Origin: Acidobacteriota bacterium
Lineage (GTDB): Bacteria > Acidobacteriota > Terriglobia > Bryobacterales > Bryobacteraceae
Direction: 5' to 3'
Assembly: GCA_947470805.1 (NCBI GenBank)
Contig: CANIVU010000008.1
Coordinates: forward strand, 62,001-126,000
Length of the DNA stretch: 64,000 bases
Under the pieces are notes generated by a model. The model saw nothing but the letters and a program-made list of their open reading frames with translations. It was not told the origin of the DNA and searched no databases. The position numbers were made by a program, and so were the translations under genes. The first letter of the stretch is position 1, and each line of letters opens with the position of its first letter. This document shows, piece after piece, positions 1 to 7,138 of the stretch.

Positions 1-1454
1 GGCGACACCTCACCTTGGCGCAACCAGGCTTGTTCGATGGCGGCTTTGCGCTCGCCTTTCGCCCGCTCATAGGCAATCGACAGCGGCAGCGACGGGCGGA
101 CATCGGCCGGGGCCATGTCGTCCAGATCGTCACGGATCTGATAGGCGATGCCGAGCGCGTCGCTATACTTGCGCAGCACTTCGACGACATCGTCATCGGC
201 GCCGGCGAGCAGCGCGCCCACTTCGAGCGACACCGCGAAGGCCGGTGCCGTCTTCTGGCGGAAGATCTCCAATACTTCGAGGCTCGACATGACGCGCGGC
301 TTGCGCATCCACGCCAGTTCCGCGCCCTGGCCGAGGCATAGAGTCCGATGACCTTGGGCGGCGGCTTGCAGTACGCGGCCCGGGGCTCCGGACATGGCGA
401 TGAGGCGGTAGCCTTCGCCGACGAGGAGGTCGCCGCAGTTCAGTGCCATGGGCACGCCGTGTTCGACGTGCAGCGCTTCGGTGCCGTAGCGTTCGGCATC
501 GTCATCCTCGATATCGTCGTGTACGAGCGAGGCTTTGTGGAAGCACTCCATGGCGACGGCGAGCTGCTTCAGGGCCCGCGGCATCTCCGCATCGGGATCC
601 GATTGCAGTGCCTTCCAGGCGCAGACCGTGAGGAACGGGCGCCAACGTTTGCCGGCGCGGGCAAGCCATTCGCGCGAGATGCGATCCGTTTCGCCGGGCG
701 CTTCGGGGCCCATGATTTCCCGCAGACCGGCCGGGGTGAACCACTCTTGCACTTCGCGGCGCAGGGCATCCAGATCCATGCGGCGGGTCTTGTCTTCTCC
801 GCTCAAATGGATGACGTCCCAGACCCATTCGATATCGACCGACGTATCCTTGCAGTCGTCCTGCAAGAGCGGAATGGCGATACCGGGAACGGCGGCGGCT
901 TCCATGTAGGGGAACGCTTTTTCGAGCACGCTCAGGCAGCTGATGCCGACGATGGCATCGATCTTACCCGTCTGAATCAACGCCATGACGAGCGCGGAGC
1001 CTTCGGCCACCAGGACGGCGTAACCCAGCTTTTCCGCCTCTTCCTGCAGATCCTGAATGGAGCACAGGCCGCACTGTTTGCAGAGCAGGCCGAAATCGTC
1101 GAAGGGGGCGGGGCACTTGTCTTCGACGCGCAGGCACTTGGGCATCAACAGCAGGCGGCGTTGGTAGGGAACGGTGGCCAGTTGTTCGCGCCAGACTTCG
1201 TTGTTGAGCAGGACGCCGACGTAATCGGTAAAGAGAGGATCGATGGCGGCGGCGCGGACGATCTCCTCAGCCCCGAGGCGGAGTTCGTCCAGCACGAGCG
1301 GCGGGACGAAGCGTGTCGAGTGTTCGGCCACGTAATCGGTGACGAACTGCTTCAGATGCTCGCGTTCGGCGCGGGTCTGCGGGACATTTTCCTGGGGCTG
1401 CCGGCTGGGCAGAACAGGGATCCGTTTCGGGAGTTGTAGGATCGGCAGTAGCAT
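1..1454 (-). CDS. DUF116 / polyprenyl diphosphate synthase fusion (3' end beyond window)
   Basis: Translated by hand from the complement; the ATG is at 1454, with AAAGG about 7 bases upstream, and the frame stays open to the window edge (484 codons seen). Residues about 100-215 carry a cysteine-rich DUF116-like module: C107, C114, C125, C128 and C131, then further cysteines near 173 and 201. Residues about 255 onward are an all-trans polyprenyl diphosphate synthase: GKRWRP at 268-273 (isopentenyl diphosphate binding), first aspartate-rich motif DDIEDD at 313-318 and second motif DDLDD at 442-446. The usual RRG after the first motif is ERYG. It would condense isopentenyl diphosphate with an allylic diphosphate; product length cannot be read. 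It is the last visible gene of the operon, 9 bases after the radical SAM gene. The fusion is unusual, and the role of the DUF116 part is unknown. Confidence 0.85.
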   Translation of the reverse strand, partial: MLLPILQLPKRIPVLPSRQPQENVPQTRAEREHLKQFVTDYVAEHSTRFVPPLVLDELRLGAEEIVRAAAIDPLFTDYVGVLLNNEVWREQLATVPYQRRLLLMPKCLRVEDKCPAPFDDFGLLCKQCGLCSIQDLQEEAEKLGYAVLVAEGSALVMALIQTGKIDAIVGISCLSVLEKAFPYMEAAAVPGIAIPLLQDDCKDTSVDIEWVWDVIHLSGEDKTRRMDLDALRREVQEWFTPAGLREIMGPEAPGETDRISREWLARAGKRWRPFLTVCAWKALQSDPDAEMPRALKQLAVAMECFHKASLVHDDIEDDDAERYGTEALHVEHGVPMALNCGDLLVGEGYRLIAMSGAPGRVLQAAAQGHRTLCLGQGAELAWMRKPRVMSSLEVLEIFRQKTAPAFAVSLEVGALLAGADDDVVEVLRKYSDALGIAYQIRDDLDDMAPADVRPSLPLSIAYERAKGERKAAIEQAWLRQGEVS

Positions 1455-1463
1455 CAGGGGCCT

Positions 1464-2654
1464 TTACGAGTATGCGCCAAAACCGAAGAACCAGTGCTTC
1501 TTGGCGAAGCGGTACATCCAGTGGTCTTCGGGGATTTCATTGCCGGGGTCGTGCTGGCTGTTGCGCGGTTCGAGCGCACGAAGTTCGGCGAGGGCTTCCT
1601 GCCGTTGCGTCGTGTCGCGCGCGCCGTACTTCACCACTAAACCCTCCACCAGGTCCGGCCGTTCCAGCATCACGCAACCGCGAGTGGCGCCGGCCGAAGT
1701 TTTCCGGAAGTCCTTGAGGAACTCCGATTGGGTCATTGTCTCAAAAACGCTCGCCCCATCGTGGATGGTCTCTTTGGCGAATTGGATGATGGGGCAGGGT
1801 TCGATGTCGCCGTAGGGACTGATGTGATGGCTGACGCCGGTGGCCATGGGGCAGAGGGCTTCGCCTTTGTCGTCCCAATAGGCGTCGACGATGGCGATGG
1901 GCAGTTTCTTGCGCATCTCCACCATGAACTTGCGCACGCGACGGACCTGTTCCTGGCTGAGCGCCAGATGCGAGGCCGGCTTGGGGCCGACGACGCGATA
2001 GGTGTGGAACCAGGCGTAGTGGACCCCCAGGGAGATCAGCTTCTGCAGCCAGGCTTCGGAGACCAGTTCGATATTGGTCTGGCAAACCGAGGTGGCGACG
2101 CCGATGATGAGTTTGTTGCGGCGGCAGTTTTCCAGGCCCGCGAGCGTCTTACTGAAGACGTTCAGCCGGCCGCGGCGTTCGTCGGAGATGATTTCGTTGC
2201 CTTCGATGGAGATGAGCGGGGTGACGTTGCCGAGTTCGCGGAGGCGCTTGGCGACGGCGTCGGTGATCATCTGGCCGTTGGTGAAGACCTGGAAATAGCA
2301 GTCCGGATGGGCGGCAAAGATCTCCAAGATCTCCGGGTGCATGAACGGTTCGCCGCCGAGGATGCCGAAGAAGCTGTTGCCGTGCGCCTTGGCGTCGTTG
2401 ATCAGCTTGTTCATGTCGGCGAGGTTGATGTGTTTGCTGGGGGCTTCGACGTCGACCCAGCAGCCCTGGCAGCGCAAGTTACAACCGGAAATGACCGAGA
2501 TAAATAGGAACGGCGGGAAGTGAACGCCCTGTTTGATGCGTTTCTTGTATAACTCTACGCTACGGACGCCTTTGTAGCCGAAGTTATAGGCGATTTTGAA
2601 CAGCGCCTTGGGATCGGCTTCCTGTAACATTCGCCAGCCGTACTTGAAGATCAT
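1464..2654 (-). CDS. radical SAM protein with SPASM-like C-terminal cysteines
   Basis: This 396-residue protein has the radical SAM CX3CX2C motif at C58, C62 and C65 (CNLRCQGC), which binds the [4Fe-4S] cluster that cleaves S-adenosylmethionine, and a GGEP motif at 100-103. Further cysteines at 268, 287 and 327 could hold an auxiliary cluster, as in SPASM/twitch-type enzymes. The substrate cannot be read from sequence. The start overlaps the ferredoxin gene by 4 bases, which implies translational coupling; the ferredoxin is the obvious candidate electron donor. The N-terminal 50 residues are basic and aromatic without a signal peptide. It does not look like lipoyl synthase LipA, which has an additional N-terminal cysteine motif. 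Confidence 0.85.
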   Translation of the reverse strand: MIFKYGWRMLQEADPKALFKIAYNFGYKGVRSVELYKKRIKQGVHFPPFLFISVISGCNLRCQGCWVDVEAPSKHINLADMNKLINDAKAHGNSFFGILGGEPFMHPEILEIFAAHPDCYFQVFTNGQMITDAVAKRLRELGNVTPLISIEGNEIISDERRGRLNVFSKTLAGLENCRRNKLIIGVATSVCQTNIELVSEAWLQKLISLGVHYAWFHTYRVVGPKPASHLALSQEQVRRVRKFMVEMRKKLPIAIVDAYWDDKGEALCPMATGVSHHISPYGDIEPCPIIQFAKETIHDGASVFETMTQSEFLKDFRKTSAGATRGCVMLERPDLVEGLVVKYGARDTTQRQEALAELRALEPRNSQHDPGNEIPEDHWMYRFAKKHWFFGFGAYS

Positions 2655-3469
2655 GATTGCGCTTTCTCCGCCAGGGCAGCTTCGGCTTTGCGCTTGGCCG
2701 CGTCGGCCTTGGCGCGGATCTCATCCACGCTGGGCAGGGCGGCGAACACTTCGGCCGGAATATCCATCTCTTTTTGCAGCTTGTTCAGGCAGTTCATGCG
2801 TTCTTTCAACGCGCGGTCCTCGTCGCGCTCCTTGGAGAAGCGGGACTTGGCTTTGATGCTGCGATCACGCAGGGCGGAGTAAATATCACCGCCCAAGAGG
2901 GCGGAAATATCCACTTTCATCGCTTCCCGGCGCATGTCGTCGGCGTTCACTTCGCCGCCGTGGATGGGGCCGTGCTTGTACTTGGGGAAGAGAATGGCGA
3001 CTTCCGGGCAGACGCGGGAGCAGGCCGGGCATTCAGTTTTGCAGTTGGTCTGGTTCTGGACCTGGATCTTGCCGTCTTTGGCGACGCCGTAGACGTCGAA
3101 GAGGCAGAAGCTCAGGCATTGCATGCAGTTGGTGCAGCGCTTGTAATCGATGACCGGGAACCAGGGTTTCCACTTGCCGGGTTGGGGCAGGGAAGCGGCC
3201 TCGCGGACGGAATCGATGGCCGATAGGATGTCGGGGGTGGCGGTGCCGTCGAGGTCGCGGAAGTGGAGTTCGGGGGCTTGGGGGAGCGGGCCATCGAACT
3301 TGCCGAGGACGACAGTGGCCGCGCCGGGGGATAAGTTGGCCACGCCGCCGGCGCGCACGGATTCGACGGGGTAGCCCTTTTCGAGCAACGCGCGCATCAT
3401 GGCGCCGCGTTCGGCGGGTTCGAGCGGCTGGCTTCCCGAGCCTTCGTAGAGAACGACTTGCACGCTCAT
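2651..3469 (-). CDS. 2[4Fe-4S] ferredoxin-type protein with unknown N-terminal domain
   Basis: This 272-residue protein has two ferredoxin cluster motifs, C112-C115-C118-C122 and C143-C147-C150-C154, each ending in a CP or CL(F) turn typical of electron-transfer [4Fe-4S] domains. Residues 1-100 form a separate domain I do not recognise. Residues 190-272 are charged and probably helical. The ATG at 3469 is chosen because it overlaps the stop of the upstream gene (ATGA); a longer open frame exists but enters the neighbour. It probably passes electrons to or from the radical SAM enzyme or the HdrA-like protein encoded next to it. Confidence 0.85.
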   Translation of the reverse strand: MSVQVVLYEGSGSQPLEPAERGAMMRALLEKGYPVESVRAGGVANLSPGAATVVLGKFDGPLPQAPELHFRDLDGTATPDILSAIDSVREAASLPQPGKWKPWFPVIDYKRCTNCMQCLSFCLFDVYGVAKDGKIQVQNQTNCKTECPACSRVCPEVAILFPKYKHGPIHGGEVNADDMRREAMKVDISALLGGDIYSALRDRSIKAKSRFSKERDEDRALKERMNCLNKLQKEMDIPAEVFAALPSVDEIRAKADAAKRKAEAALAEKAQS

Positions 3470-3798
3470 GATTTGGCCTCCAGGATTGAGGTTACGATAT
3501 CGCTGGCCGGCAGTTCGCGCATATTCAAGATTTGCACGCGATCTTCGGGGAGTACAACGCCGGCGGCGGAAAACAGCCACTTGATGGCGCGGGGGTAGCA
3601 GGCGGCGATTTGCAGTGTGTCGCCGCTATCGACCCACGCGGCCAGGCGCGGATCGCGACGGGCCGACATTTCGCACATGTCGGGCACGGCTTCGAATTCC
3701 AGGTTCGATGCGGCGAGGCCGGAGAGCACCTCCTGCTTCACCGCTTCCGGGACCACGCGCGCGAAGGCGCAATGGCAGTAGAGAACGCGCTGGCTCAT
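3466..3798 (-). CDS. stand-alone HdrA N-terminal-like Fe-S protein
   Basis: This 110-residue protein has CHC at 8-10, C42 in a DMCEMS context, and AACYPR with C67 at 65-70, followed by an F-x-x-AG and an NMRE motif. The order and spacing match the N-terminal cluster-binding domain of heterodisulfide reductase subunit A (CHC, MC, AACSPR, AG, NIRE). That domain is normally fused to a flavin domain; here it is alone. The start at 3798 overlaps the CobW-type gene by 4 bases and the stop overlaps the ferredoxin gene by 4. A cluster-binding role is inferred from the motif match and should be tested by profile search. Confidence 0.75.
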   Translation of the reverse strand: MSQRVLYCHCAFARVVPEAVKQEVLSGLAASNLEFEAVPDMCEMSARRDPRLAAWVDSGDTLQIAACYPRAIKWLFSAAGVVLPEDRVQILNMRELPASDIVTSILEAKS

Positions 3799-4886
3799 CG
3801 ATGCGCCATTCGGTAGGTGGGCTCCGGTTTGCCGGGGCGGAAGTGTTCCAGGTGCTTCACTTCGGCTTCGCAGCCGCAGGCGGCGAGCGAGTCGAGCACG
3901 GCGGTGCGGAGGAGTTCGGGATCGGCTTCGGCGCGGAGGTTGAGCAGGAGTTCGCCGGCGGCCAGCGGGGCTTTGAGGGAATGGGAGATTTCGGCCACGC
4001 CATCGGTGCGGACCAGATTCAGCACGCCGATATCGCCGCCGTCTTCGGTGGGGATGAGCGTCATTTTCAGATGGGCGATTTCGATGTCCGGCATGGCGGC
4101 GCGGGTGCGGGCGGCGACGGTGCGGAGGAGTTCGTTGCCATCGATTTCGTGGAGAGCGGTGATCGAGATCGTCGCGTTCAGCCAGCCGAGGAGGGCTTCG
4201 CCTTCGGCGTAGATTTGGTAGTCGACATCGGGGGCGGTTTCGGCCTGCATCTCTTCGGCGGTCATGCGGGTGAGCCAGCTGTCGAGCCCCACGTCTTGGC
4301 GGGCGGAGATGCGGACGACGTCGGCCTGCGGATACTTGGCGCGGAGGGCGGCTTCCAGGCGGTCCTGGCGGGCATCGTCGAGCAGATCGCACTTATTGAG
4401 CACGATGATTTCGGCCTCTTCGAGCTGCTTGCCGTAGACGTAGATGACCTTGCTGGAGAAGCTGGCGCCGGGGGCGAGCCCGAGGACGCGTTCGGCGCGA
4501 ATGGGATCGACCAGGACGCTGAGCGGGGCGACGCGGAACGATTCGCCATAGATCTGGCGGAGCGGGAAGCTGACGGCGGCCACCAGATCGGTACAACTGC
4601 CGACGGGTTCGGCGATGAAGACGTCGGGGCGGGTAGATTCGGTGAGCCGATCGGAGGCTTCGACGAGCGTGTTGAAACGGCAGCAGAAGCAGCCGCCGGT
4701 GATCTCTTCGACGGGGAATTCGGCGTGGGAGAGGACGGCGGAATCGACCAGGCCGACGCTTTGATCGTTGGTGATGAGGCCGACTCTTTTGCCCTGGGCG
4801 GTGAGGTGGCGGGCGAGTTGGAGAATGGCGGTCGTTTTGCCGGCGCCCAGAAAACCGCCGATCATCAGGTATTGTGATTTGCTCAT
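3795..4886 (-). CDS. CobW/COG0523-family GTPase (metal chaperone type)
   Basis: This 363-residue G3E-family P-loop GTPase has Walker A GGFLGAGKTT at 10-19, the metal-binding GGCFCC at 64-69 (the CXCC of COG0523 proteins) and the guanine-specificity NKCD at 164-167. The C-terminal half carries the usual CobW C-terminal region. Family members deliver zinc, cobalt or iron to client enzymes in the cytoplasm. In this operon the client is probably one of the Fe-S or radical proteins, but which metal and client cannot be read. The start overlaps the end of the GcvH-like gene by 4 bases. Confidence 0.88.
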   Translation of the reverse strand: MSKSQYLMIGGFLGAGKTTAILQLARHLTAQGKRVGLITNDQSVGLVDSAVLSHAEFPVEEITGGCFCCRFNTLVEASDRLTESTRPDVFIAEPVGSCTDLVAAVSFPLRQIYGESFRVAPLSVLVDPIRAERVLGLAPGASFSSKVIYVYGKQLEEAEIIVLNKCDLLDDARQDRLEAALRAKYPQADVVRISARQDVGLDSWLTRMTAEEMQAETAPDVDYQIYAEGEALLGWLNATISITALHEIDGNELLRTVAARTRAAMPDIEIAHLKMTLIPTEDGGDIGVLNLVRTDGVAEISHSLKAPLAAGELLLNLRAEADPELLRTAVLDSLAACGCEAEVKHLEHFRPGKPEPTYRMAHR

Positions 4887-5335
4887 TTTTCCTCGTGTCT
4901 GTTGGCTAGCATCTTGTCTATTGTGGCATCAAGAATGCCGACGTAGCCGTGGACGTCGACGGCTTCCGGTTCGGGCGTACCGTGGACGGCGTAGAGCCAG
5001 CCGCGGCCGTAGGGGTCGCTTTCGAGCAGGGTGATGTCGTCGCGGAGGGCGGGGTTGGACCCGGCGAACTGGCCCCGGGCGACGGAGAAGATGTCGCTGA
5101 CGGCTTTGAAGCCTTCGATCCAGCCGATGCGGGCGCCGATTTCGATCTCGGTTTTGCCGGCCGGTTCGAGTTGGAATTCGACCAGGTCGCCGAGCATGCG
5201 GAGGGCGAATTTGGTGAAGCCGACGCGCCAGAGGCCGGGTTCATTTGGGGCTTCGGCGAGCCAGTAGTGGCTGCGGGTGTAGAGGATGTTTTCGGGCAGG
5301 CGGGTGCCGAAACGGGTCCGCTTATACTCGAGCAA
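4883..5335 (-). CDS. GcvH-like lipoyl carrier protein
   Basis: This 150-residue protein resembles glycine cleavage H protein. The E74-GF-K77-AVSD motif lines up with the ESVKAASD lipoylation site of GcvH, so K77 is the predicted lipoyl lysine. The start is TTG at 5335 with a full AGGAGG ribosome site 6 bases before it, inside the end of the desulfurase gene. No gcvT or gcvP is in the window, so a role outside glycine cleavage is likely, comparable to the lipoate-binding protein of sulfur-oxidising Hdr systems. A divergent lipoate-ligase-like gene two genes away supports it as the lipoylated partner. Lipoylation is inferred. Confidence 0.85.
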   Translation of the reverse strand: MLEYKRTRFGTRLPENILYTRSHYWLAEAPNEPGLWRVGFTKFALRMLGDLVEFQLEPAGKTEIEIGARIGWIEGFKAVSDIFSVARGQFAGSNPALRDDITLLESDPYGRGWLYAVHGTPEPEAVDVHGYVGILDATIDKMLANRHEEK

Positions 5336-6464
5336 GCCGCGCCTCCTGGAGGGTGGCGACCATGGCGTCGAGGTCCGGCAGTTCGGAGAGGTGGCACCAG
5401 CTGAGGCGGATGGCGCCGGCGGCGCGGTCGCCCCCGATGCCCATCGCGGCGAGGACCGGGCTGCAGGTATAAGACTGGGCCGAGCAGGCCGCGCCGCTGC
5501 TTACCGCCGCCAGATGTTCCCAGGCCTGCATAACCTCATTGGATTCAAATCCCGGTATAGAAAGATTCAGAATAAATGGCAAACTTTGTTCGGGGGCGCC
5601 GTTGATTTGGGGATGGAGCGGGGCGAGGCCTTCGAGGATTTGTTGGCGGAATCGTTTTCCGGCTTGTTGGCGTTCGGCTGCGGCGCGGCTCCAGCGTTCG
5701 GCGGCTTCGCCGAGGGCGGCTATCAGTGCCACCGGGAGGGTGCCGGGGCGGAGGCCGCGTTCCTGGCCGCCGCCGAAGGTGAGCGGTTGGAGAGGGGGCT
5801 TTTCGCGGCCGCGGCGGCGGGCGATGAGGGCGCCTACGCCTTTGGGGCCGCAGATTTTGTGGGCGCTGAGGCTGATGAGGTCGATCCTTGGGTGGTGCAG
5901 GGCTTCGGGTGATTTGGCGAAGCCTTGGGAGGCGTCGGTATGGAAGTATACGGGTTCGTTGACGATTTGTTCCGCGATTTGGCCCAGGGGCTGGAGGGCG
6001 CCGGTCTCGTTGTTGACCTGCATGACGGAGAGGAGCAGGGTGTCGGGGCGGAGGGCTTGCGTGATGGTCTGCGGGTCGATGACGCCGTCCGAGTTGGGAC
6101 GGACCAGGGTGAGGGTGAAGCCGCGGCGTTCGAGCTCTTCGAGGGGTTCGAGGACGGCGCGGTGTTCGATGGCGGTGGAGACGAGATGGGTCTTGCCGGT
6201 TTGGCGGCCGTATAGTTCGAGGCCGAGGAGGGCGAGGTTGTTGGCCTCCGTCGCGCCGCTGGTGAAGAGGACGTCGCCGCGTTGGGCTTGGGCGACAGCG
6301 GCGACTTGATCGCGGGCGCGTTCGACGGCGCGGCGGGCCTCCTGACCGGGGGCGTGGGTGCGGCTGCCGGCGTTGCCGAAGTCGGTTTTTAGATAGCGGA
6401 TGCACACGTCGAGCACGTGGGGGTCGAGGGGTGTTGTGGCGGCGCAGTCCAGGTAAGCGGCCAT
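5322..6464 (-). CDS. cysteine desulfurase (NifS/IscS family)
   Basis: This 380-residue class V aminotransferase-fold enzyme has HRAV near 101, the PLP lysine K203 in an AHKICGPKG context, and the catalytic cysteine C327 in SSGAACS followed by SPVLAAMG. It would remove sulfur from L-cysteine as an enzyme-bound persulfide. It is the first gene of the minus-strand operon, with its ATG 47 bases from the divergent lipoate-ligase start, so both promoters must lie in that gap. No iscU or sufBCD genes are next to it, which suggests the sulfur goes to this operon's product rather than to general Fe-S assembly. Confidence 0.9.
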   Translation of the reverse strand: MAAYLDCAATTPLDPHVLDVCIRYLKTDFGNAGSRTHAPGQEARRAVERARDQVAAVAQAQRGDVLFTSGATEANNLALLGLELYGRQTGKTHLVSTAIEHRAVLEPLEELERRGFTLTLVRPNSDGVIDPQTITQALRPDTLLLSVMQVNNETGALQPLGQIAEQIVNEPVYFHTDASQGFAKSPEALHHPRIDLISLSAHKICGPKGVGALIARRRGREKPPLQPLTFGGGQERGLRPGTLPVALIAALGEAAERWSRAAAERQQAGKRFRQQILEGLAPLHPQINGAPEQSLPFILNLSIPGFESNEVMQAWEHLAAVSSGAACSAQSYTCSPVLAAMGIGGDRAAGAIRLSWCHLSELPDLDAMVATLQEARLARV

Positions 6465-6511
6465 GGTCTCTCAATAGGGTGACGGAACGGGTGGGGTAGA
6501 GTCAAAGAGAC

Positions 6512-7138
6512 GTGTTTTCCGTGCTCGAAGTAACCCGGCCGACGCCGGAAGAAAACCTGGCTTTTGATGACGAACTGCTGGCCGGCGGGCGGGAGGTTTT
6601 GCGTTTGTGGGAGAGTCCGCGGCCGTTTGTGGTGTTGGGGCGGAGTTGCCGGGTGGAGACGGATGTTGATGTGGAGGCGTGTAAGGCGGAGGGGGTGCCG
6701 GTGTTGCGGCGGAGTTCGGGGGGCGGGACGGTGTTGTTGGCGCCGGGGTGTTTGAATTATGCGCTGGTGTTGTCGATGGAGGCGCGGCCGGGGTTGATGA
6801 ACGTTTCTTCGAGTTATTCGTTGATTTTGGGGGCGGTGGTGGAGGCGATGGGCGTCGCGGGATTGGCGGTGGAGGGGACGGATTTGGTTGTTGCGGGGCG
6901 GAAGGTGGCTGGGTGCGCGCAGCGCCGGTCGGGCGGTTGGCTGCTGCATCATGGGACGATACTGTGCGAGGGGGTGGATCTGGGGCAGATCGGGCGGCTG
7001 TTGCAGGAGCCGCCGCGGCAACCTTCTTATCGCGCGGGACGGTCGCATGCGGCTTTCCTGGCGCCGTTGATTAAATTGGTGCCTGGCACCAATTTAATGA
7101 AAAAGGGGCGGTGGGCGGGGATTGGTGGATTGGCATAG
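6512..7138 (+). CDS. lipoate-protein ligase A-like protein
   Basis: This 208-residue protein has the RRSSGGGTV motif near 70-78 and GRKVAGCAQRR with HHGTIL near 128-150, the core of the LplA/BPL catalytic domain that adenylates lipoate and transfers it to a lysine. It starts at GTG 6512 with AGAG just upstream. It is shorter than E. coli LplA and lacks the C-terminal accessory domain. The last residues are encoded by a 27-base palindrome (7071-7097), so the natural C-terminus may have been replaced when that element arrived. It is divergent from the operon that encodes the GcvH-like carrier and probably acts on it. Confidence 0.85.
   Translation: MFSVLEVTRPTPEENLAFDDELLAGGREVLRLWESPRPFVVLGRSCRVETDVDVEACKAEGVPVLRRSSGGGTVLLAPGCLNYALVLSMEARPGLMNVSSSYSLILGAVVEAMGVAGLAVEGTDLVVAGRKVAGCAQRRSGGWLLHHGTILCEGVDLGQIGRLLQEPPRQPSYRAGRSHAAFLAPLIKLVPGTNLMKKGRWAGIGGLA
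7071..7097. repeat. REP-like perfect palindrome
   Basis: Two perfect 13-base arms (TTAAATTGGTGCC and its complement) flank a single central T. The element sits inside the 3' end of the lipoate-ligase-like gene and is more AT-rich at its ends than the surroundings. The GGTGCC core resembles small palindromes spread by REP-associated transposases. A related, weaker core occurs at 39132-39144. Confidence 0.7.

Follow-up and report, generated by a model that had tools for sequence, protein, structure and literature searches.

A conserved gene cassette that joins terpenoid enzymes to a radical SAM enzyme and, in many lineages, a lipoyl carrier

What would a lipoyl carrier, a small four-cysteine protein, a ferredoxin, a radical S-adenosylmethionine (SAM) enzyme, a CobW-type GTPase and a cysteine desulfurase be doing in one operon with an isoprenoid synthase? 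The question is raised by the left end of a 64,000-nucleotide stretch of DNA (the window; C8:62001-126000 of an 8.7 Mb genome) from a bacterium of the Acidobacteriota family Bryobacteraceae (GCA_947470805.1, contig CANIVU010000008.1), in which a first-pass annotation, made from the sequence alone, had described seven tightly spaced minus-strand genes with a divergent lipoate-ligase-like gene and had suspected that more genes lay beyond the open left end. All of these genes were found where it had placed them, the seven within window positions 1-6464, and extension to the left brought in two more, CYCB and SHC. As read from its sequence, the operon of this genome is one of nine genes with terpenoid enzymes at its end. 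Because of these cyclases, which lay outside the annotation's view, the pathway points to a cyclic terpenoid; we think it probable, with room for doubt, that this is an operon dedicated to making a cyclic terpenoid, which a Twitch-type radical SAM enzyme then modifies. The pathway itself is real and widespread, and apparently undescribed.

Layout and conservation of the operon

Read along the minus strand, the window genes run NFS, GCVH, COBW, HDRA, FER, RSAM and DUF116/PPS, joined by five overlaps of 4-14 bases and one 9-base gap, with LPLA transcribed divergently from them. Their Pfam matches above cut-off were Aminotran_5, GCV_H, cobW, Radical_SAM, DUF116 with polyprenyl_synt, and LplA-B_cat. 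The final 74 codons of DUF116/PPS fall left of the window edge, where CYCB (C8:60955-61836, same strand) overlaps it by 59 bases and is separated by 427 bases from SHC (C8:58902-60527, same strand). Most of a 167-aa reading frame, for which no protein family matched, falls in that C-rich gap (L003:16528-16954), and TRF detected no tandem repeats there.

When named genome contigs were scanned once with FER, 77 loci came up, by title 38 from Acidobacteriota, 30 from Planctomycetota, 6 from Verrucomicrobiota, 1 from Hydrogenedentota, 1 from Actinomycetota (probably mislabelled) and 1 unplaced; ten further loci were drawn from other genomes of the window's phylum, and the phyla of sampled genome sets were inferred from their named members. 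Loci with at least 3.3 kb upstream and at least 6.5 kb downstream of FER were taken as assessable (n = 52), leaving out the window's own loci (L003/L004), duplicates (L031/L032) and those with too short flanks. All eight genes of the series GCVH-COBW-HDRA-FER-RSAM-DUF116/PPS-CYCB-SHC lay on one strand in 46/52 (Acidobacteriota 28/30, Planctomycetota 12/12, own-phylum draws 5/6, unplaced 1/1, Actinomycetota 0/1 and Verrucomicrobiota 0/2), so the genes stay together in other genomes, as the annotation had asked to be checked, and by this sequence count their co-occurrence exceeds chance. The order among genes present was kept at 51 of the 52 loci, a locus with FER only being counted as in order. 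A desulfurase was adjacent in 43/52, NFS lying upstream at 29 loci and downstream at 14. The cassette had an LPLA relative at 19 of the 52, and LplA/LipB-type genes occurred somewhere in 34/34 host genomes.

Within Verrucomicrobiota the gene set was rearranged or split: L146 holds GCVH, COBW, a fused HDRA-FER, RSAM, DUF116/PPS, CYCB and SHC in a single cluster, L143 has every gene of the set except SHC, and others carry GCVH or COBW on a separate contig. The window's phylum was sampled with 396 genomes; 11 of them have close FER (E<1e-70), and a search for HDRA (E<=1e-6) picked out exactly these 11; 8 additional genomes had weak ferredoxin matches only. A FER gene, close or distant (E<=1e-25), was found in 83/392 Planctomycetota and 37/288 Verrucomicrobiota genomes sampled. 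A DUF116/PPS tree (60 rows, quick method, built without loci L025-L034) clusters by phylum, and its starred branches force three changes each for Acidobacteriota and Planctomycetota; as a sequence tree it is compatible with some transfer.

Across the flanks of 89 loci, no gene family besides the cassette recurred in more than 8; the widest, at 7 loci, were a Lon-domain protein, a TRAP transporter, a sulfatase and PQQ-like propellers, the last three being large families. In L090, L097, L099 and L101 (the same contig as L031), all of one marine-looking lineage, the cassette is preceded on its own strand by genes for a flavin adenine dinucleotide (FAD)/tryptophan-halogenase-like protein, a TRAP transporter and an AMP-binding enzyme. 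At L104 the FER match ends early, and RSAM, DUF116/PPS and CYCB are absent between FER and SHC; at L107:5310-8678 (Acidobacteria MAG 277c_2) FER, RSAM and DUF116/PPS are in fragments, from a decayed copy or assembly errors. L033, L034 and L143 have a radical SAM relative of 40% identity elsewhere in the operon, not between FER and DUF116/PPS.

The terpenoid, redox and lipoyl-arm proteins

Residues were counted in alignments that excluded open reading frames with <70% query cover or <20-30% of the self score. The 558-aa DUF116-polyprenyl diphosphate synthase fusion (DUF116/PPS, <1..1454, minus strand; PF01976 124.9 bits, PF00348 136.1 bits) has seven invariant cysteines in its DUF116 domain (68/68) and, in its synthase (PPS) domain, the two DDxxD motifs required of a trans-polyprenyl diphosphate synthase (first 68/68, second 67/68). 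At least one other polyprenyl synthase was present in 34/34 host genomes, making the cassette PPS an extra copy. The 541-aa squalene-cyclase-like SHC (PF13243/PF13249) carries DxDD in 61/61 rows and SQHop_cyclase domains, the marks of a class II terpene cyclase; in domains, motif and sequence kinship it is like squalene-hopene cyclase and drimenyl diphosphate synthase, being kin of the hopene cyclase in PDB entry 1gsz (E 7.9e-20) and of PDB 7xq4 and 8zg1, the last a drimenyl diphosphate synthase.

CYCB (293 aa) was modelled as an all-helical toroid (predicted local distance difference test score, pLDDT, 96.6), closest to the beta subunit of RabGGTase (template modelling score, TM, up to 0.72), with class II cyclases next. 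It shares with RabGGTase beta the alpha/alpha-toroid fold and a weak sequence kinship; unlike that enzyme, it has no recognised alpha-subunit-like gene in the operon. The zinc site of protein prenyltransferase beta subunits is formed by Asp, Cys and His. CYCB has only one conserved cysteine, C89 (64/67), which is Ser in 3/3 rows of the planctomycete variant described below, so that the zinc-site cysteine looks absent from the alignment. Without a recognised alpha subunit or a matching conserved cysteine, a protein-prenylating role for CYCB was set aside as unlikely.

All six marked cysteines of RSAM (1464..2654, minus strand; PF04055 57 bits), C58, C62, C65, C268, C287 and C327, were present in 76/76 rows, and they are kept in the readable rows of both variants below. 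Twitch/SPASM enzymes have CxxxCxxC, then CX9-15GX4C and a further cysteine, and the C268-x13-G-x4-C287 spacing of RSAM, read from the sequence, fits this pattern, which it shares with NirJ2, AhbC, AhbD and BlsE. Unlike those enzymes, RSAM stands in another genetic setting and scores far under the model cut-offs (best models NirJ2, AhbC and AhbD); its best PDB sequence match was cytosylglucuronate decarboxylase. FER (2651..3469, minus strand) is a two-[4Fe-4S] ferredoxin-like protein with a long conserved tail, Fer4 matches just under cut-off, and its eight cluster cysteines plus C227 in 81/81 rows.

HDRA (3466..3798, minus strand, 110 aa) keeps C8 in 82/83 rows and C10, C42 and C67 in 83/83, a CxC..C..C pattern that we take to resemble the HdrA N-terminus. 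Profile searches gave no family match for it, and a sequence search of the PDB returned designed proteins only and no credible match. Its AlphaFold2 model (pLDDT 95) has a small alternating strand-helix fold for which Foldseek found nothing below E 0.001, with weak matches to MvhD (E 0.012), HdrA (E 0.033, TMq 0.47) and unrelated Rossmann-like proteins. The annotation's term 'HdrA-like' holds for the cysteine pattern; for homology it has these weak fold matches.

The GcvH-like carrier GCVH (4883..5335, minus strand; PF01597 68.4 bits) has an invariant K77 (75/75) that aligns with the lipoyl lysine of the window genome's canonical GcvH, in keeping with its predicted lipoylation. That canonical GcvH (151 bits) adjoins a GCV_T gene (309 bits) away from the cassette, and no gcvT or gcvP partner was among the operon genes by Pfam. 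Because gcvT-gcvH lies elsewhere in the genome, the cassette carrier is, by sequence and location, distinct from housekeeping GcvH, an outcome in the annotation's favour on one of its own tests, and ordinary glycine cleavage genes were ruled out as an identity for it. A canonical GcvH (~120 bits or more) accompanied the cassette type (60-83 bits) in 25 of 28 carrier genomes; G398, G402 and G414 had the cassette type only.

Catalytic or metal-binding residues were also kept in the remaining proteins. COBW (3795..4886, minus strand; PF02492 89.1 bits), a CobW/HypB/UreG-type GTPase with a GCFCC metal motif, has its Walker lysine K17 and C66, C68 and C69 of CFCC in 78/78 rows, and NFS (5322..6464, minus strand; PF00266 220.8 bits), an IscS/DndA-type desulfurase scoring 443.6 with the DndA model (under the cut-off of 480), has C327 and K203 in 53/53. 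LPLA (6512..7138, plus strand, 208 aa; PF21948 110.4 bits) is an LplA/LipM-like acyl or lipoate transferase with K131 in 23/23; it has the catalytic domain only, with C80 conserved (22/23) near a GGG motif, and may, we presume, act as a LipM-type acyl transferase instead of a ligase.

Two diverged variants

A minimal variant was found at ten loci, each in a different Verrucomicrobiota genome whose FER is distant (44-50% identity), in windows of 6-20 kb. FER, RSAM and DUF116/PPS were contiguous in 9/10, and five core genes (HDRA-FER, RSAM, DUF116/PPS, CYCB and SHC) formed one cluster in 7/10, one with a gene between CYCB and SHC. HDRA and FER were fused in 10/10, with all four HDRA cysteines kept in 10/10; the fusion also occurs outside this variant (L106, L144-L146). 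No GCVH, COBW or NFS lay within these 6-20 kb windows. In genome-wide searches, all 13 Verrucomicrobiota whose FER is close (E<1e-50) had cassette COBW (E<1e-100), and among those with distant FER 1 of 26 (G491) had a COBW match below 1e-20, at 37% identity. Four minimal loci (L151, L152, L148 and L156) lie among PQQ-like beta-propeller genes, L151 and L152 also having multi-Fe-S proteins that look like NapG/NapH, and L152 has glycosyltransferase and ABC transporter genes nearby.

By FER, the Planctomycetota sample divided into 32 genomes with a close gene (E<1e-70), 7 intermediate and 44 distant. Twelve of the distant loci, examined in 20-kb windows, make up a planctomycete variant with GCVH at 10, SHC at 8, DUF116/PPS at 8, CYCB at 3, COBW at 3 and RSAM at 2; neither a four-cysteine HDRA nor a desulfurase was found in those windows. 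The GCVH lysine was kept in 10/10. When the N-terminus of the planctomycete FER was aligned with HDRA, 12/12 rows showed replacements at three of the four cysteines and 11/12 at the fourth as well; the eight FER cluster cysteines were retained in 18/18 rows of the alignment that holds this variant. At L205:10047-11582, a 511-aa radical SAM protein lies between FER and DUF116/PPS, with two proteins without a Pfam match (323 and 356 aa) downstream on the opposite strand.

Both variants keep the DUF116 cysteines (21/21) and the DxDD of SHC (15/15 readable rows, one row being gapped), and the second PPS motif is altered, to ND..D in 8/8 planctomycete rows and DD..E in 4/13 minimal rows. The parts kept wherever the alignments are readable are FER, RSAM, DUF116/PPS and SHC. 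GCVH, COBW and the desulfurase look like a tailoring arm, because the minimal variant has no nearby GCVH and no cassette-type COBW anywhere in the genome, and the four-cysteine HDRA appears to vary independently. The annotation's interpretation was borne out in part: the pathway is real and conserved, but its single obligatory lipoyl-HdrA-ferredoxin dithiol relay is weakened, not refuted, by these sequences, because GCVH and four-cysteine HDRA do not go together in the two variants.

Readings of the pathway

On the reading that we favour, the PPS domain would make a polyprenyl diphosphate, probably of C20 or longer, whose far end SHC, as a DxDD class II cyclase, would protonate and cyclise, with the toroid CYCB as a partner or second prenyl-binding unit. 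RSAM would then modify the terpenoid, drawing electrons from FER and perhaps also from the cysteine-rich DUF116 domain tethered to the synthase. In many lineages the GCVH and COBW arm, often with NFS and a lipoate ligase, may add C-S bond formation or dithiol reduction, a step that the minimal variant appears to skip.

Several observations weigh against this account. One or more genes were missing from 6 of the 52 assessable loci, both assessable named Verrucomicrobiota loci being incomplete; L104 has NFS, GCVH, COBW, HDRA, FER and SHC but no RSAM, PPS or CYCB, and L205 has a different radical SAM protein in place of RSAM and no SHC near. Of 39 Verrucomicrobiota genomes that carry FER, 4 gave no HDRA, one of these being cut by a contig end. 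The planctomycete FER N-terminus gave no match to the HDRA profile at E 1e-4 and a profile-profile probability of 33% (61 columns, E 4e-4), so that 'HDRA with lost cysteines' is an alignment reading, not firm homology. Beyond D47, D228, D277 and E279, CYCB residues are poorly conserved in the variants, the chain length proposed for PPS follows what we take to be a rule of thumb, and squalene/phytoene synthase is present in 22/34 hosts.

A bolder version, which we regard as less likely than not, is a new type of isoprenoid metabolism with the lipoylated carrier and the radical SAM enzyme acting together on a cyclised polyprenyl. Sulfur would pass from the desulfurase through the lipoyl arm, aided by the CobW GTPase, into a terpenoid, yielding a thio-terpenoid that serves as membrane lipid or redox cofactor; the minimal variant would make its sulfur-free parent. 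The annotation's sulfur-containing prenyl product on a lipoyl carrier is likewise possible. As to sulfur incorporation, the desulfurase is adjacent in 43/52 loci but was not found beside the planctomycete variant.

An unlikely alternative to the terpenoid pathway is a redox route like that of the sulfur-oxidising Hdr (sHdr) systems, in which sulfur from the desulfurase would be loaded on the lipoyl carrier, electrons would pass to the HdrA-like protein and ferredoxin, and the terpenoid would be a membrane anchor or acceptor. A rough CCG pattern marks HdrB; among all open reading frames of the loci, whose neighbours were partly Pfam-tested, it occurred in one chance 174-aa frame. No HdrB-like pattern lay near the cassette, and no HdrB or HdrC was among the Pfam-tested genes. 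The annotation had noted the lack of HdrB, HdrC and a flavin domain; this held for the cassette, a flavin protein appearing outside it as the FAD/halogenase-like gene ~7 kb upstream in 5 loci, all of one lineage. The likeness to sHdr clusters, which contain LbpA and specific sLpl ligases (PMC6067878, PMC10332631), lies in the GcvH-like single lipoyl-domain protein, an LplA-like gene at some of the loci, a radical SAM gene and the HdrA-like cysteine pattern; there is a ferredoxin too, HDRA is fused to FER at several loci, and the loss of HDRA cysteines in the planctomycete variant depends on weak homology. However, the two conserved cysteines of LbpA, described as absent only in some archaeal forms (PMC6067878), are missing from GCVH, whose best cysteine column reaches 24/75, with 16/75 rows lacking any cysteine. 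The cassette also differs in having one radical SAM enzyme against the LipS1/LipS2 pair, in the separation of GCVH from four-cysteine HDRA in two variants, and in its terpenoid enzymes, which go with FER in the variants too. Given the missing LbpA cysteines and HdrB-like pattern, membership of sHdr was rejected.

We likewise doubt that this is a variant hopanoid or triterpenoid operon, in which SHC would cyclise squalene and the other enzymes decorate the product as HpnH does. The SQHop_cyclase domains and kinship to 1gsz speak for it, as do a weak HpnH match of RSAM (38.5 bits, cut-off 225) and the squalene/phytoene synthase of 22 hosts, the window's genome among them. With the hopene cyclase model TIGR01507 (cut-off 431.1), however, three cassette SHC proteins scored 80-91 bits and that of the window genome 69.7 in a genome search, while the same genome has two canonical matches besides, of 628 bits (with one internal stop) and 611 bits; canonical hopene cyclase was found in only 8/34 hosts. 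Unlike a hopene cyclase, cassette SHC lies beside FER, RSAM and DUF116/PPS, in an operon with a polyprenyl synthase and no squalene synthase. No squalene/phytoene synthase was found at E<=1e-10 in 12/34 hosts, namely G183, G077, G407, G408, G410 (Aeoliella straminimaris), G415 and the six tested minimal-variant genomes. Since none was detected there, the cassette cyclase of those 12 cannot depend on squalene, unless a very distant synthase was missed or the genome is incomplete. We rejected a hopanoid operon on the SHC score and these 12 hosts.

No less doubtful is the proposal that the product, made or modified by these genes, is a respiratory quinone or other lipid-soluble redox carrier with a cyclised prenyl chain. 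It draws on L068:5667-10720 (Verrucomicrobium), where FER-DUF116PPS-CYCB-SHC are followed after 363 bases by menaquinone-like chorismate-binding, thiamine pyrophosphate (TPP)-enzyme, hydrolase, enoyl-CoA hydratase and UbiA genes, and on the Fe-S protein and PQQ-like propeller genes that adjoin some minimal variants. Such quinone-type neighbours stand at this one locus only, however; no aromatic-ring gene was noticed by eye among recurrent neighbours elsewhere, and all 34 host genomes have other polyprenyl synthases. That ordinary glycine cleavage or lipoate genes, a desulfurase and terpenoid genes are chance neighbours is highly improbable: every domain except HDRA comes from a common family, but the genes stay together in 46/52 loci, HDRA and FER occupy the identical 11 genomes, and canonical gcvH sits beside gcvT elsewhere.

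The cyclic-terpenoid pathway that we favour had, like the annotation's gene set, no description in the open-access literature searched, many subscription papers and all preprints falling outside that search. DUF116 occurred there as a whole word in one paper only, on archaeal proteins (Biochimie 2015; PMC5898192), which mentions a DUF116-polyprenyl synthetase fusion in one sentence, for Psta_0175 of Pirellula staleyi, and predicts DUF116 to be a metal-binding, flavodoxin-like electron-transfer domain. That fusion is the same as in the cassette; the paper's section on it gives no pathway or terpenoid role.

From the wide occurrence of FER it follows that an as yet nameless lipid or cofactor is widespread. 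DUF116, a family without a known function, would be offered a pathway, and lipoic acid would gain a role in isoprenoid metabolism if the lipoyl carrier takes part. Carriers of the cassette include Aeoliella straminimaris ICT_H6.2 (L105) and Planctomycetales bacterium ZRK34 (L070), both presumably cultured. With a named strain and a complete genome among its hosts, the pathway should be testable, and its five-gene variant offers a built-in dissection of the parts.

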